Part shown: positions 26,243 through 29,413 of the stretch, piece by piece
Layout of the letters: the number at the start of each line of letters is the position of its first letter
How positions within the stretch are numbered: the stretch's first letter is position 1
Source: an uncultured Ruminiclostridium sp.
Lineage (GTDB): Bacteria > Bacillota > Clostridia > Oscillospirales > Ruminococcaceae
Assembly (NCBI GenBank): GCA_947594425.1
Contig: CANQED010000004.1
Span: forward strand, 62,001-126,000
Reading direction: 5' to 3'
Length of the DNA: 64,000 nucleotides
Position numbers and translations under genes: made by a program
The notes under the pieces: model-generated
The model's database searches: none
Seen by the model: the letters and a program-made list of their open reading frames with translations, nothing else
What the model was told of the DNA's origin: nothing

Positions 26243-26623
26243 TTACTCCCGACGGTCATCTTTAGCTGTCGGGAGTTTTTTGTCCTTATGAAATACTTCT
26301 TTTACGCCTACAAAAATAAGCAGCAGCGCGAAAAGCTTTCGCAGTATATCCGCGTCGATGTATATCCCGATAATACTGCCCGCCGCCGCTCCGAGCAAGC
26401 CGAAAAACGCATAGTATTTGACAGCCTTAATATCTATCAGCTTATTTTTGGCGTGAATTATCACAGACAGCAAGGCTATCGGCAAAAAGAACAAAAGATT
26501 TGCCCCCTGCGCAATATCCTGCGGCGTATCGGTAAACGCGGACAGATATATCAAGAATATAAACCCGCCGCCCAGCCCCATAGACGCCGCCGCGCCCGAG
26601 AGCAGTCCTATCAGTATATTCAT
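26243..26623 (-). CDS. TauE/SafE family half-transporter (second half)
   Basis: 126 residues, four hydrophobic segments, starting MNILIGLLSGAAASMGLGGGFIFL. The glycine-rich GxGGGF motif marks one repeat of the TauE/SafE (DUF81) anion exporter family, normally about 250 residues with two repeats. Its ATG overlaps the stop of 26620-26970 by 4 bases, so the two halves are made together and probably assemble. The charged tail KDKKLPTAKDDRRE is cytosolic. Substrate unknown (sulfite, sulfonates and other small anions in characterised members). Confidence 0.85.
   Translation of the reverse strand: MNILIGLLSGAAASMGLGGGFIFLIYLSAFTDTPQDIAQGANLLFFLPIALLSVIIHAKNKLIDIKAVKYYAFFGLLGAAAGSIIGIYIDADILRKLFALLLIFVGVKEVFHKDKKLPTAKDDRRE
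26245..26281 (+). terminator. Terminator after rarA
   Basis: ACTCCCGAC (26245-26253) pairs with GTCGGGAGT (26268-26276), followed by TTTTTTG. It also overlaps the last codons of the converging TauE/SafE gene. Confidence 0.92.
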
Positions 26624-26970
26624 ATCAGCAATATCCTTATCGCGCTGATAAGTATCATTATACCGAATATTCTTCTAAGCATAGAATTAGGTATGCGGTT
26701 TAGCAGCATTGCTCCCGCAAATGCCCCGCCGAGCCCCCACGGTATATATTCCCACGCAAGGGCAAAATCTATCTTGCCTTGTATATAATAAAGCGACGTA
26801 GTGAATATGCTGAGTATAAATATTAATGCTACCGACGAGGCGTGGGCTTTTTTTGCCTCAAGACCACTTTTTTCGAGGCAGGGAACAGCCGCAACGCCGC
26901 CGCCCGAGCCGAACAGCCCGTTTAACAGCCCGCACAGCCCGCCTAAGATACTGTTTAGCTTATATTTCAT
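26620..26970 (-). CDS. TauE/SafE family half-transporter (first half)
   Basis: 116 residues, four hydrophobic segments, with LNGLFGSGGGVAAVPCLE, the counterpart of the GLGGGF motif in the next gene. It is only one repeat of a TauE/SafE protein. The next gene supplies the other repeat in the same transcript. A structured RNA ending in a terminator lies immediately upstream (27033-27219), so these genes may be attenuated by it. Confidence 0.85.
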   Translation of the reverse strand: MKYKLNSILGGLCGLLNGLFGSGGGVAAVPCLEKSGLEAKKAHASSVALIFILSIFTTSLYYIQGKIDFALAWEYIPWGLGGAFAGAMLLNRIPNSMLRRIFGIMILISAIRILLI

Positions 26971-27032: not shown

Positions 27033-27219
27033 TAAAACAGGCTTCCGCCTAAGCCGGCGAAAGCCCGATAATTTTTAAAACCACCTTGCCGTGGTATGAA
27101 AGATAAAACCCGCACAACAGTACGGTGGGTTAATTTCTCCCGAGCGGTTCACGCTCCCTTCGTCCGCAAAAGCGGGAGGTCTGCAATCCGCGCCCGGAGG
27201 CGAAATCCCTTTAAAATTT
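27033..27219 (-). ncRNA. Structured RNA or leader upstream of the TauE/SafE pair, class not identified
   Basis: A GC-rich, stem-loop-dense stretch with a promoter at its 5' side and a terminator at its 3' side on the minus strand. Hairpins in plus coordinates: CGCC/GGCG (27191-27202), CCGC-AAAA-GCGG (27164-27175), GAGCG/CGCTC (27142-27156) inside CTCCC/GGGAG (27137-27178), AACCC/GGGTT (27107-27131) and ACCAC/GTGGT (27080-27095). AT-rich arms (27071-27080 and 27210-27220) can close the whole. The 3' end is GGCTTTCGCC/GGCGGAAGCC (27065-27040) and TGTTTT. It may be a free RNA or a riboswitch-like attenuator. I could not match a known consensus. Confidence 0.6.
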
Positions 27220-27225
27220 TGTTGG

Positions 27226-27254
27226 ATCATATACATCCATACTGAAACGAACAA
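27226..27254 (-). promoter_or_regulatory. Promoter of the 27.0-27.2 kb RNA
   Basis: Minus strand TTGTTC (27254-27249), 17-base spacer, TATGAT (27231-27226). It would start transcription near 27219. Confidence 0.6.
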
Positions 27255-27273
27255 GGCAGTAAATCAAACCTGT

Positions 27274-27579
27274 TTATTCCTCTTCCTCGGTGTCGAGTAT
27301 CTCGAAAAAGTTCTCAAAGAAAGCGTCGGCGACCTGCTGATATTCTTCGTCGCTGTCTATCGAGGCGAGATATTTTTCTCCGTCGTTTTCGCTTTCTTTA
27401 AGGAAAACTATCTCGTCGTCATCGACGTTTTCGCTTTCCGAGTAAGGGGTGAGCGCATAATAAAACGCGCCGTTAAATTCCATACGCTGAAATATCTCAA
27501 AGGTGACCGTGTTGCCGTCCTCATCTTCAAGATCGATAAGCTCAAAATCTTCGTCAAATAAGTTATCCTGTTCGGGCAT
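27274..27579 (-). CDS. DUF1292 family protein
   Basis: 101 residues from ATG at 27579 (MPEQDNLFDEDFELIDLED), chosen because AAAGGAT precedes it at a good distance; the longer frame to 27654 would run into its promoter. The highly acidic sequence with ELIDLEDEDGNTVTFEI and FYYALTPY matches DUF1292, small proteins widespread in Firmicutes and often near Holliday-junction resolvase genes. Function unknown. Single-gene transcript. Confidence 0.85.
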   Translation of the reverse strand: MPEQDNLFDEDFELIDLEDEDGNTVTFEIFQRMEFNGAFYYALTPYSESENVDDDEIVFLKESENDGEKYLASIDSDEEYQQVADAFFENFFEILDTEEEE

Positions 27580-27784: not shown

Positions 27785-27813
27785 TTGACTTTTGATAAAA
27801 GTTATGGTATCAT
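27785..27813 (+). promoter_or_regulatory. Promoter of the 550-nt RNA
   Basis: TTGACT (27785-27790), 17-base spacer, TATCAT (27808-27813). The transcript would begin near 27820. The preceding 120 bases back to the DUF1292 promoter are AT-rich and hold nothing else that I recognise. Confidence 0.75.
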
Positions 27814-27953
27814 ATAATCAAGGAAAAAGAAAGTCCTTAGACAGAGCGAACGGCTTGGTGCAAAACTCTTAAGTATAATAAAGTTCGGTAAGCTCACATA
27901 TATGCAACACGGAAAGCGCATATAAATCTGTTGTCGGTAAGGAGGCGAGTCCG

Positions 27954-28013
27954 ATGGAAATAGAAAAAGAAAGTTTTTCTTCAGTCAGGGTCTGTCGTGA
28001 CTCGGATTTTTGA
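27954..28013 (+). CDS. Possible 19-residue ORF inside the long RNA
   Basis: AAGGAGG (27939-27945) stands 8 bases before ATG at 27954, opening MEIEKESFSSVRVCRDSDF and a TGA at 28011. It is one of the best ribosome sites in the window, in an otherwise noncoding transcript. The start region is enclosed by the CGAGTC/GACTCG helix, which would need to open for translation. It may be a real microprotein, a leader peptide, or a purine-rich structural element that merely resembles a ribosome site. Confidence 0.35.
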   Translation: MEIEKESFSSVRVCRDSDF

Positions 28014-28338
28014 GAAATAAGATCGCGAATAGCTCACACGGCATTCGGCAGATACTTTCTAATAACGGGATTTACCCGAACAGATGAGTACGACAAACCT
28101 TGAAAAAGAAAACGCGAGCAATCTTAGCGGCAGGTGATACCTGCGGTTACCGCGAAAGCGTTTATTATAAATCACCCTATTGCAAGTAAAGGTAAGGTGG
28201 TTGAAATGATCAGTGAAGTTTCGACAAGGAGCAGCGCAAAATAGCTGCTCGGGAGTTATCACATCATAAGAATGAGAGGTATATTCCGATGTGCTGATTA
28301 CTTCACCCCGTAGGTTTACGGTAAAATTGAATAATACA

Positions 28339-28371
28339 GGCTGTCGATATAGTCGGCAGCCTTTTAGTTTT
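28339..28371 (+). terminator. Terminator of the 550-nt RNA
   Basis: GGCTGTCGA (28339-28347), loop TATAG, TCGGCAGCC (28353-28361), then TTTTAGTTTT: 9 bp with one G-U. Confidence 0.9.
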
Positions 28372-28465: not shown

Positions 28466-29413
28466 ATGAATTATAAAATTAATCTCGGCTGTTGGGGGTC
28501 GGTGTTTGCCGTACCGTCCGATGTGGTGGACAAATACATAAAAATAGCAAGCGGCAGCTCTATAAAGGTGCTGCTGTATTTCCTGCGCCACAATGGGACC
28601 GATGTGAACGCCGAGCTTATTTCGCGCGAGCTGAGTATAGGCAAAGAGGACGTGTCCGACGCGCTTTTATTCTGGCAGCAGCAGGGGATATTGCAGAGCG
28701 TCGAGGGCGAGCTTGTTCCCGCCGCATATGTACAGCGGGAGGACAATTCCGCACAGCTTGCCGCCGCAAAGGCCGCCGCGCTGAGGACGCCCGATTTTTC
28801 TCCGTCGGAAATTGCCGATACGGTAAAAAATGACAAGAAGATAGATTTTCTTTTTAAAGAATGCGAAAAGCTGTACGGCAGGCCGCTAAGGCACGCCGAG
28901 CAGAACGCTTTAGTCGCCGTGACCGAGCATATAGGGCTTCCCGCCGAGGTCGCGCTTATGATGATAGATCACTGCTTTTCTATCGGCAAAAGCTCGCCCG
29001 CCTATATAAAAAAGACCGCTATGGAATGGGTAGAGAACGAGGTAAACACCCTTTCCGCCGCAGAAGAGCGCATTTGCGAGGAGCAGAACAGATACAGCGC
29101 GCAAAATATCGTCAAGCGCCTGTTCGGCATCGATAGGGCTATGTCTCAAAAGGAAAAGGATTTTTCTTATCAGTGGGTAAACGACTGGGGCTTTTCCGAG
29201 CAGATGATAAAGCAGGCGTATGATATAAATGTAAATAATAAGGGCAAATGCTCTTTTCCTTATATCGGCAAGATCTTGGAAAATTGGCACGCTAAGGGCT
29301 ATACCGAGGTCGCTCAGGTCATTGCCGAGCGCAAGGCAAAGCCCGACAGCTCGTCGCTCGATTTTACCGAGATAGAGCAGCAGATACTTGAAAGCTATAA
29401 AAAAGGAGATTGA
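28466..29413 (+). CDS. dnaD: DnaD-domain replication protein
   Basis: 315 residues. The N-terminal winged-helix part (about 10-95) is followed by two DnaD/DnaB-like domains: one with KLYGRPLRHAEQNALVAV (about 136-200), the other with RLFGIDRAMSQKEKDFSYQW and PYIGKILENWHAKGYT (about 218-285). The YxxxIlxxW motif is the DNA-binding signature. Such proteins help load the replicative helicase at initiation and restart. The dnaI-type loader gene follows directly, which supports the role. It could equally be labelled DnaB-like primosomal protein. Confidence 0.85.
   Translation: MNYKINLGCWGSVFAVPSDVVDKYIKIASGSSIKVLLYFLRHNGTDVNAELISRELSIGKEDVSDALLFWQQQGILQSVEGELVPAAYVQREDNSAQLAAAKAAALRTPDFSPSEIADTVKNDKKIDFLFKECEKLYGRPLRHAEQNALVAVTEHIGLPAEVALMMIDHCFSIGKSSPAYIKKTAMEWVENEVNTLSAAEERICEEQNRYSAQNIVKRLFGIDRAMSQKEKDFSYQWVNDWGFSEQMIKQAYDINVNNKGKCSFPYIGKILENWHAKGYTEVAQVIAERKAKPDSSSLDFTEIEQQILESYKKGD

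Follow-up and report, generated by a model that had tools for sequence, protein, structure and literature searches.

RNAIII of S. aureus is a dual-function RNA. VcdRP of Vibrio cholerae is presented as another in PMC8672173. Two-codon minigenes are described in PMC8708949 for axe-txe (mg2), LEE1 of EHEC and ycbK of B. subtilis, where their effect is in cis, on a gene that overlaps them or lies downstream, and its passages on these minigenes report no preference for the second amino acid. According to PMC11915504, AUG–stop pairs can stall ribosomes in plants. OLE, ROOL and GOLLD are classed as large ornate RNAs in PMC12286853. The RNA considered here has no published description in the literature searched; part of it may stand unnamed in the supplementary tables of PMC11109978 or PMC8040213.

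The window is the whole stretch of DNA that was analysed, 64,000 nucleotides from an uncultured Ruminiclostridium sp. Judged from the DNA, positions 27,820–28,371 are a genuine RNA gene of about 540 nt, free-standing and folded, with its own ends, homologues, helices and conserved short frames. The gene and its neighbours are:

27,820–28,371, forward strand: structured RNA gene, ~540 nt (folding z −4.85; homologues by DNA search; covariation)
27,785–27,813, forward strand: promoter-like site TTGACT-17-TATCAT (from sequence; a similar TTGAC..TATNNT lies 5′ of homologues)
28,339–28,365, forward strand: intrinsic terminator, 9-bp hairpin and T run (8 of 11 pairs changed on both sides in A3, an alignment of 10 RNAs of the window's genus)
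27,274–27,579, reverse strand: DUF1292 gene, divergent neighbour (Pfam PF06949)
28,466–29,413, forward strand: DnaD/DnaB_2-family gene, downstream neighbour (Pfam PF07261)
27,074–27,265, reverse strand: 6S RNA, beyond the DUF1292 gene (Rfam RF00013)

Read directly, the promoter-like site consists of TTGACT at 27,785–27,790, a 17-nt spacer and TATCAT at 27,808–27,813. By lax patterns counted with no shuffled control, a promoter-like site lies 5′ of the RNA in 46 of the 52 homologous loci and a terminator-like hairpin 3′ of it in 43. The minimum free energy of the block is −160.3 kcal/mol, compared with −132.1 ± 5.8 kcal/mol for shuffled sequence (z −4.85), and none of 100 dinucleotide shuffles folds as low. 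The original prediction of a structured RNA that stands free, is of transcript size and has a promoter and a terminator of its own is supported. No ORF longer than 111 aa overlaps the block. The DUF1292 gene is upstream and divergent in 28 of the 52 collected loci, some of them distant (L028, L031, L045, L067, L109), and DnaD is downstream in only 9, with other genes elsewhere; many of the remaining loci carry merely 1–1.5 kb of flank. Four Coriobacteria-type loci with longer downstream flanks have neither gene. The 6S RNA is the sole match in the whole window at Rfam gathering scores, and 6S RNA is also found near 5 of 18 loci scanned (8-kb loci, not all centred on the RNA) and near L109, one of six sources in a second scan. 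The arrangement of a 6S gene beside the DUF1292 gene recurs in several relatives. TauE/SafE is present in the window as two half-length genes at 26,243–26,623 and 26,620–26,970, both on the reverse strand and each matching one half of the Pfam profile; L028 likewise has two adjoining ORFs (137 and 142 aa).

No Rfam 15 family matches the block at gathering score, in keeping with the initial failure to recognise a family. Permissive thresholds gave four matches (best E 0.69), which lie far under the gathering scores and were rejected as chance. RNase P RNA and tmRNA were set aside as identities, each having a strong match elsewhere in the genome (266.8 and 155.9 bits). Words resembling GGTATAGTCC and GATGAAAGTC had raised the idea of a group I or II intron; the Rfam scans gave no match to either, and RF01998, the group-II-D1D4-1 model, had none in the own genome. 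A phage or mobile origin was also rejected: 50,697 phage records held no long match and three matches of 22–32 bases, and four IMG/VR pattern matches showed no flanking likeness by eye. The OLE (RF01071) and ROOL (RF03087) models found no match in the own genome or in the Rfam scans, nor any in 14 control genomes, which leaves the power of the own-genome searches undemonstrated; of the likeness to these RNAs that had been suggested, the size stood but no match to either model was found. GOLLD, HEARO and raiA gave no match in whole-Rfam scans, the presence of these models in the Rfam copy being unconfirmed.

A plain DNA search of 60 relatives, the kind of search proposed with the original prediction, did find homologues: besides the own genome, nine others carry the RNA at about 70% identity, all of them among the 35 congeneric genomes searched and none among the 24 from elsewhere in the order. 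A AGGAGGCGAGTCCRATGG scan of 84,980 species genomes gave 36 stretches, about half of which carry the same RNA by eye, several of the records being the same contigs as the congeneric genomes (e.g., L035 and G018:C2). The carriers are MAGs named Ruminiclostridium, Oscillospiraceae or Clostridiales bacterium and Candidatus Soleaferrea and, on the Coriobacteria side, Collinsella, Enorma and uncultured Coriobacteriaceae. A model of the ORF1 region, the most conserved part (R1; 67 positions, 9 pairs), matches 45 of 247 genomes of the own order (E ≤ 0.001), with one match in 43 of them, two in one and three in one; at least 5 of these 48 places are false, heading ordinary longer frames (L144, L146, L148, L156 and the place of L102). 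In a sample of 236 genomes from the class, R1 matches 4 (E ≤ 0.0001), each belonging to the own order, and it matches 21 of 59 genomes of the Enorma genome's family (Enorma/Collinsella-type). The stricter filters applied in searches of more than 40 genomes can miss weak members, and absence elsewhere is therefore not established. By these matches, the RNA is kept mostly as a single copy per genome across two distant bacterial groups.

The fold was assessed on A3, from which L007, L105, L106, L107 and L113 were omitted. RNAalifold gave 61 pairs in 10 helices, and among the 58 pairs counted 20 had changed on both sides, against 10.8 ± 2.1 when shuffled, with 51 both-side-changed cells against 16.1 ± 3.5, the structure having been taken from the same alignment as was tested, which favours it. 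"Further pair types" showed no excess (38, against 40.8 in shuffles), and no pair varies or covaries informatively in three of the ten helices. Covariation in the alignment backs the RNA's helices. About ten helices had originally been drawn by eye; ten are present in A3, but they are not all the same helices. The GTGAAG/CTTCAC multibranch domain did not survive as a shared element, being kept, by eye in A3, in the window and its three nearest relatives (L002–L004) only. The helices outside ORF1 are:

27,838–27,843, forward strand: 5′ strand of a predicted long-range closing helix with partner 28,290–28,296 (RNAalifold, 10 relatives)
27,899–27,924, forward strand: hairpin TATATGC..GCATATA (5 of 8 pairs changed on both sides in A3)
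28,130–28,160, forward strand: hairpins GCAGG..CCTGC and CGC-GAAA-GCG, then GCGTTTAT (A3)

In the closing helix, 95% of cells are paired with no both-side change, i.e., without covariation support, and all 10 RNAs of A3 have an unchanged CGC/GCG stem. The word GAGTCC occurs outside ORF1 20 times in 12 of the 52 RNAs, against 4.5 expected and a maximum of 9 in 40 shuffles, suggesting that the motif may have its own role, perhaps in alternative pairing with the ORF1 arm.

The block had been regarded as noncoding, with no long ORF, and a conserved frame through it had been named as an observation that would refute the prediction. For part of the block there is such a frame: a 19-codon frame at 27,954–28,013 is conserved in length, start and stop, which the other two frames are not; with a 12-codon and a two-codon frame also present, three short frames with RBS-like leaders had been overlooked. 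The elements of the first are:

27,939–27,945, forward strand: Shine–Dalgarno AAGGAGG of ORF1 (near-invariant in alignments A1 and A2)
27,944–27,952, forward strand: 5′ arm GGCGAGTCC of the ORF1 helix, between SD and AUG (4 of 9 pairs changed on both sides)
27,954–28,013, forward strand: ORF1, 19 codons, MEIEKESFSSVRVCRDSDF (conserved length; codon-periodic variation in Coriobacteria-type relatives)
27,999–28,004, forward strand: 3′ arm GACTCG of the ORF1 helix (hand-chosen over a second possible arm, 27,988–27,996)

ORF1 starts 8 nt past AAGGAGG, and the nine bases 5′ of RATG pair with its second half. In 38 sequences, 82.8% of the cells of this helix pair, against 78.9 ± 0.5 when shuffled, and 12 cells are changed on both sides, against 1.1 ± 1.2 (0 of 500 shuffles); these are 38 of 41 sites, with L028, L039 and L075 dropped for an unclear helix and the window arm set by hand, which favours the helix. 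Register 0 exceeds six slid registers by every measure, and in two relatives (L067 and L068) the whole stem is swapped together (GCTTGTC/GACAAGC). Taken sequence by sequence, the helix is often no better than chance (p < 0.05 in 12 of 41 sites against shuffled downstream sequence).

The 41 sites were kept by hand from 92 pattern rows with frames already ≤32 codons, leaving out repeats, extra sites in kept RNAs and loci without promoter and helix by eye; omitted loci include L025, L026, L029, L044, L049, L071, L094, L095–L101 and L112. Eleven weaker R1 matches were added, omitting L146, L148 and L156, which head longer genes, L154 and L162, which are leaders of lipoprotein-like genes, and L151 and L158, which are repeats. 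In L154 and L162, an SD-GAGTCC-ATG frame of about 24 codons lies immediately 5′ of the lipoprotein-like gene. In L095, L097, L098, L099 and L100 (family f20, genus g20), AAGGAGGGGAGTCCAATGGCT heads very short frames, several copies per genome (MAHTTDQ, MAHFSAK, MAHSSAS, MAHISAL, MAHIFGFSSVTL), which in L095 and L097 at least stand shortly before further genes.

ORF1 has 15–24 codons in 51 of 51 distinct collected sites, a range into which frames +1 and +2 fall at 9 and 10 of them; 41 of these sites were hand-picked from the list limited to ≤32-codon frames, so that the 30 best model matches and the 23 further matches give the fairer figures. Among the 30 best R1 matches, taken with no length filter, ORF1 has 15–23 codons in 29 and 41 in the remaining one. 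In the further matches, which are those with loci given and of which several repeat places already collected, it has 16–24 codons in 23 of 23, as against 1 and 5 of 23 in the other frames. Variable columns at codon positions 1, 2 and 3 number 21, 16 and 32 in 12 groups of close relatives, and the corresponding pairwise differences over codons 2–7 are 0.214, 0.203 and 0.408 in 18 distinct Coriobacteria-type sequences; synonymous codon differences in the Coriobacteria-type relatives (169) are fewer than nonsynonymous ones (374). Most Coriobacteria-type peptides begin with MGxE[E/D]IA, and L108 has the start codon GTG instead of ATG. Lineages differ in the reading frame that the helix's 3′ arm occupies, suggesting that RNA pairing rather than the peptide constrains the second half of ORF1. 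As a candidate for the translated small ORF of a dual-function RNA, ORF1 shows a conserved frame, start and stop and codon periodicity.

The other two frames lie 3′ of ORF1:

28,194–28,202, forward strand: SD-like AAGGTGGTT before ORF2 (GG-TGATT-type element, same place in relatives)
28,206–28,244, forward strand: ORF2, 12 codons, MISEVSTRSSAK (length conservation)
28,274–28,279, forward strand: SD-like GAGAGG before the two-codon ORF (motif scan)
28,289–28,297, forward strand: two-codon ORF ATG TGC TGA (motif scan, 52 RNAs)

Exactly 12 codons follow the GGTGATT-like element at 11 of 20 candidate ORF2 sites (ten of the window's genus type and L103), and at none of the 20 in either other frame; L006 has lost ORF2. 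The two-codon scan covered GG-N(3-9)-CCNATG sites except ORF1, 58 in the 52 RNAs. One codon and a stop follow the ATG at 27 of these, in 22 of the 52 RNAs, whereas frames +1 and +2 have exactly two codons at 0 and 2 of 58 sites, and background DNA (window and flanks, both strands) at 6 of 105. Three codons or fewer are found at 35, 19 and 6 of the 58 sites in the own, +1 and +2 frames. The stops of the two-codon frames are TGA (14), TAA (10) and TAG (3), the second codons are varied, and none of the 27 has TGG at the third triplet. The AUG is followed immediately by a stop at two sites (L103, L104), and two codons and a stop follow at six. The window's genus and RNAs that look like its own account for eleven of the 27, and the remainder come from eight further genera (g13, g26, g32, g61, g70, g98, g117 and g152) and from L033, which carries no genus label, sites within one genus not being independent.

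The other 30 of the 52 RNAs are without a two-codon frame of the GG-N(3-9)-CCNATG kind, and in L107 the stop is lost. In the window's genus the terminal two-codon site can pair with the RNA 5′ end (no covariation), a pairing that would conserve part of the site even if it were untranslated. Among the 23 further matches, at least 10, in Coriobacteria-type relatives, have CCAAAGTA as the terminal motif, with no AUG. In the window, 28,274–28,297 carries the SD, ATG, single codon and stop of a two-codon minigene, and no gene lies between this frame and the terminator. Several two-codon frames within a free-standing RNA are the unusual part of the finding. In family f13 (L086, L087, L089, L090, L079 and L150), a conserved CCGATGGGCATACYGATGRGTATG hairpin is found 3′ of ORF1 with no two-codon frames, and L031 and L045 have three tandem GGGGTGAGTCC..AAATGATGAAAGTCATT-like modules there, each near an 8- to 11-codon frame.

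The RNA looks partly translated, into a micropeptide of about 18 aa and, in many relatives, from two-codon frames. We think it probable, though far from assured, that this is a dual-function RNA, both structured and translated, single-copy and free-standing, whose fold is coupled to ribosome occupancy. Ribosomes would load at the strong Shine–Dalgarno and translate the ORF1 micropeptide of about 18 residues. Since the second half of ORF1 pairs with the SD–AUG spacer, a ribosome would have to open this helix during initiation or elongation, and translation and folding would be coupled. The other RBS-like motifs (in the window, those of the 12-codon and two-codon frames) may be extra ribosome seats for one or a few codons. 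Occupancy by ribosomes would most likely determine how the RNA folds and how long it lasts, and the RNA, perhaps together with the micropeptide, would act in trans. Transcription, translation of the frames, control of folding by occupancy and action in trans are what we infer.

The rival that survives best, although unlikely, is a noncoding RNA that acts in trans by structure alone, as in the OLE/ROOL type, its AUGs lying in conserved RNA motifs and its short frames being by-products. It would account for the covarying helices, for the terminal motif that Coriobacteria-type relatives keep without an AUG, for a 3′ arm of the ORF1 helix that is independent of frame, and for the GAGTCC repeats outside ORF1 (20 against 4.5 expected), which resemble a binding motif. 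However, the length of ORF1 is conserved in one frame only and its variation is codon-periodic, the start changes from AUG to GUG in L108, and the 27 two-codon frames use three kinds of stop codon and never have TGG as their third triplet.

A doubtful proposal, slightly less credible than the structural one, is a new class of docking RNA that would store or sense initiating ribosomes and whose conserved core would be ribosome start sites on minimal frames (of 18, 12 and two codons and, in two relatives, AUG–stop). Such a class would handle initiating ribosomes as 6S RNA handles RNA polymerase. A ribosome-docking or sponge RNA, several of whose start sites on minimal frames would hold initiating ribosomes or initiation factors as a translational counterpart of 6S RNA, is slightly more doubtful still. 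Some RNAs do have two to six RBS-like sites (e.g., L103, L109, L155), the compact L155 has ORF1 and two two-codon frames ahead of the terminator, and 6S RNA is close in several loci. However, two-codon frames of the motif are missing from 30 of the 52 RNAs, and the nearness of 6S, absent in 13 of 18 loci (8-kb, not all RNA-centred), may be chance synteny.

It is very improbable that the RNA is a cis-acting leader or attenuator of an adjoining gene. SD-GAGTCC-AUG does head 7- to 24-codon frames before genes of signal-peptide proteins in unrelated f20 loci (L095, L097–L100, L154, L162), but here a terminator-like hairpin precedes the next gene in 43 of 52 loci, the downstream genes vary (DnaD in 9 of 52) and the conserved neighbour, DUF1292, is divergent. 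Different downstream genes, together with promoter- and terminator-like ends of its own in most relatives, indicate that no single gene has this RNA as its fixed leader. A short ORF behind an SD, with a promoter and terminator of its own, might suggest a type I toxin-like small-protein gene or other plain short mRNA, but this can practically be dismissed, since the ORF1 peptides are acidic near the N-terminus rather than hydrophobic stretches, five of them have no NCBIfam match, and hundreds of structured nucleotides lie 3′ of ORF1.

With no Rfam 15 match at gathering score, the RNA would be a new RNA family of animal-gut bacteria; it is new as a family, whereas its kind, the dual-function RNA, is already known. 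If the frames are translated, this would be a natural case, inside a stable RNA, of the two-codon frames known as cis elements in the minigenes covered by PMC8708949, and the coupling between translation and RNA folding would be directly testable.

Compared with OLE, ROOL and GOLLD, the RNA is likewise a free-standing bacterial RNA of about 500–600 nt with complex folding, but the OLE and ROOL models have no match in the own genome and the window RNA carries conserved short frames. It resembles 6S RNA in being single-copy and housekeeping-like, and its gene adjoins DUF1292 on the other side, but its sequence is different and a separate 6S gene lies at 27,074–27,265. With the two-codon minigenes it shares the SD, ATG, one codon and stop; in contrast to them, the window's example sits in a free-standing RNA closed by a terminator. 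Like the dual-function RNAs, it is a free-standing structured RNA that also bears a small ORF, and it differs from them in the helix between SD and AUG and in the two-codon frames found in many relatives.
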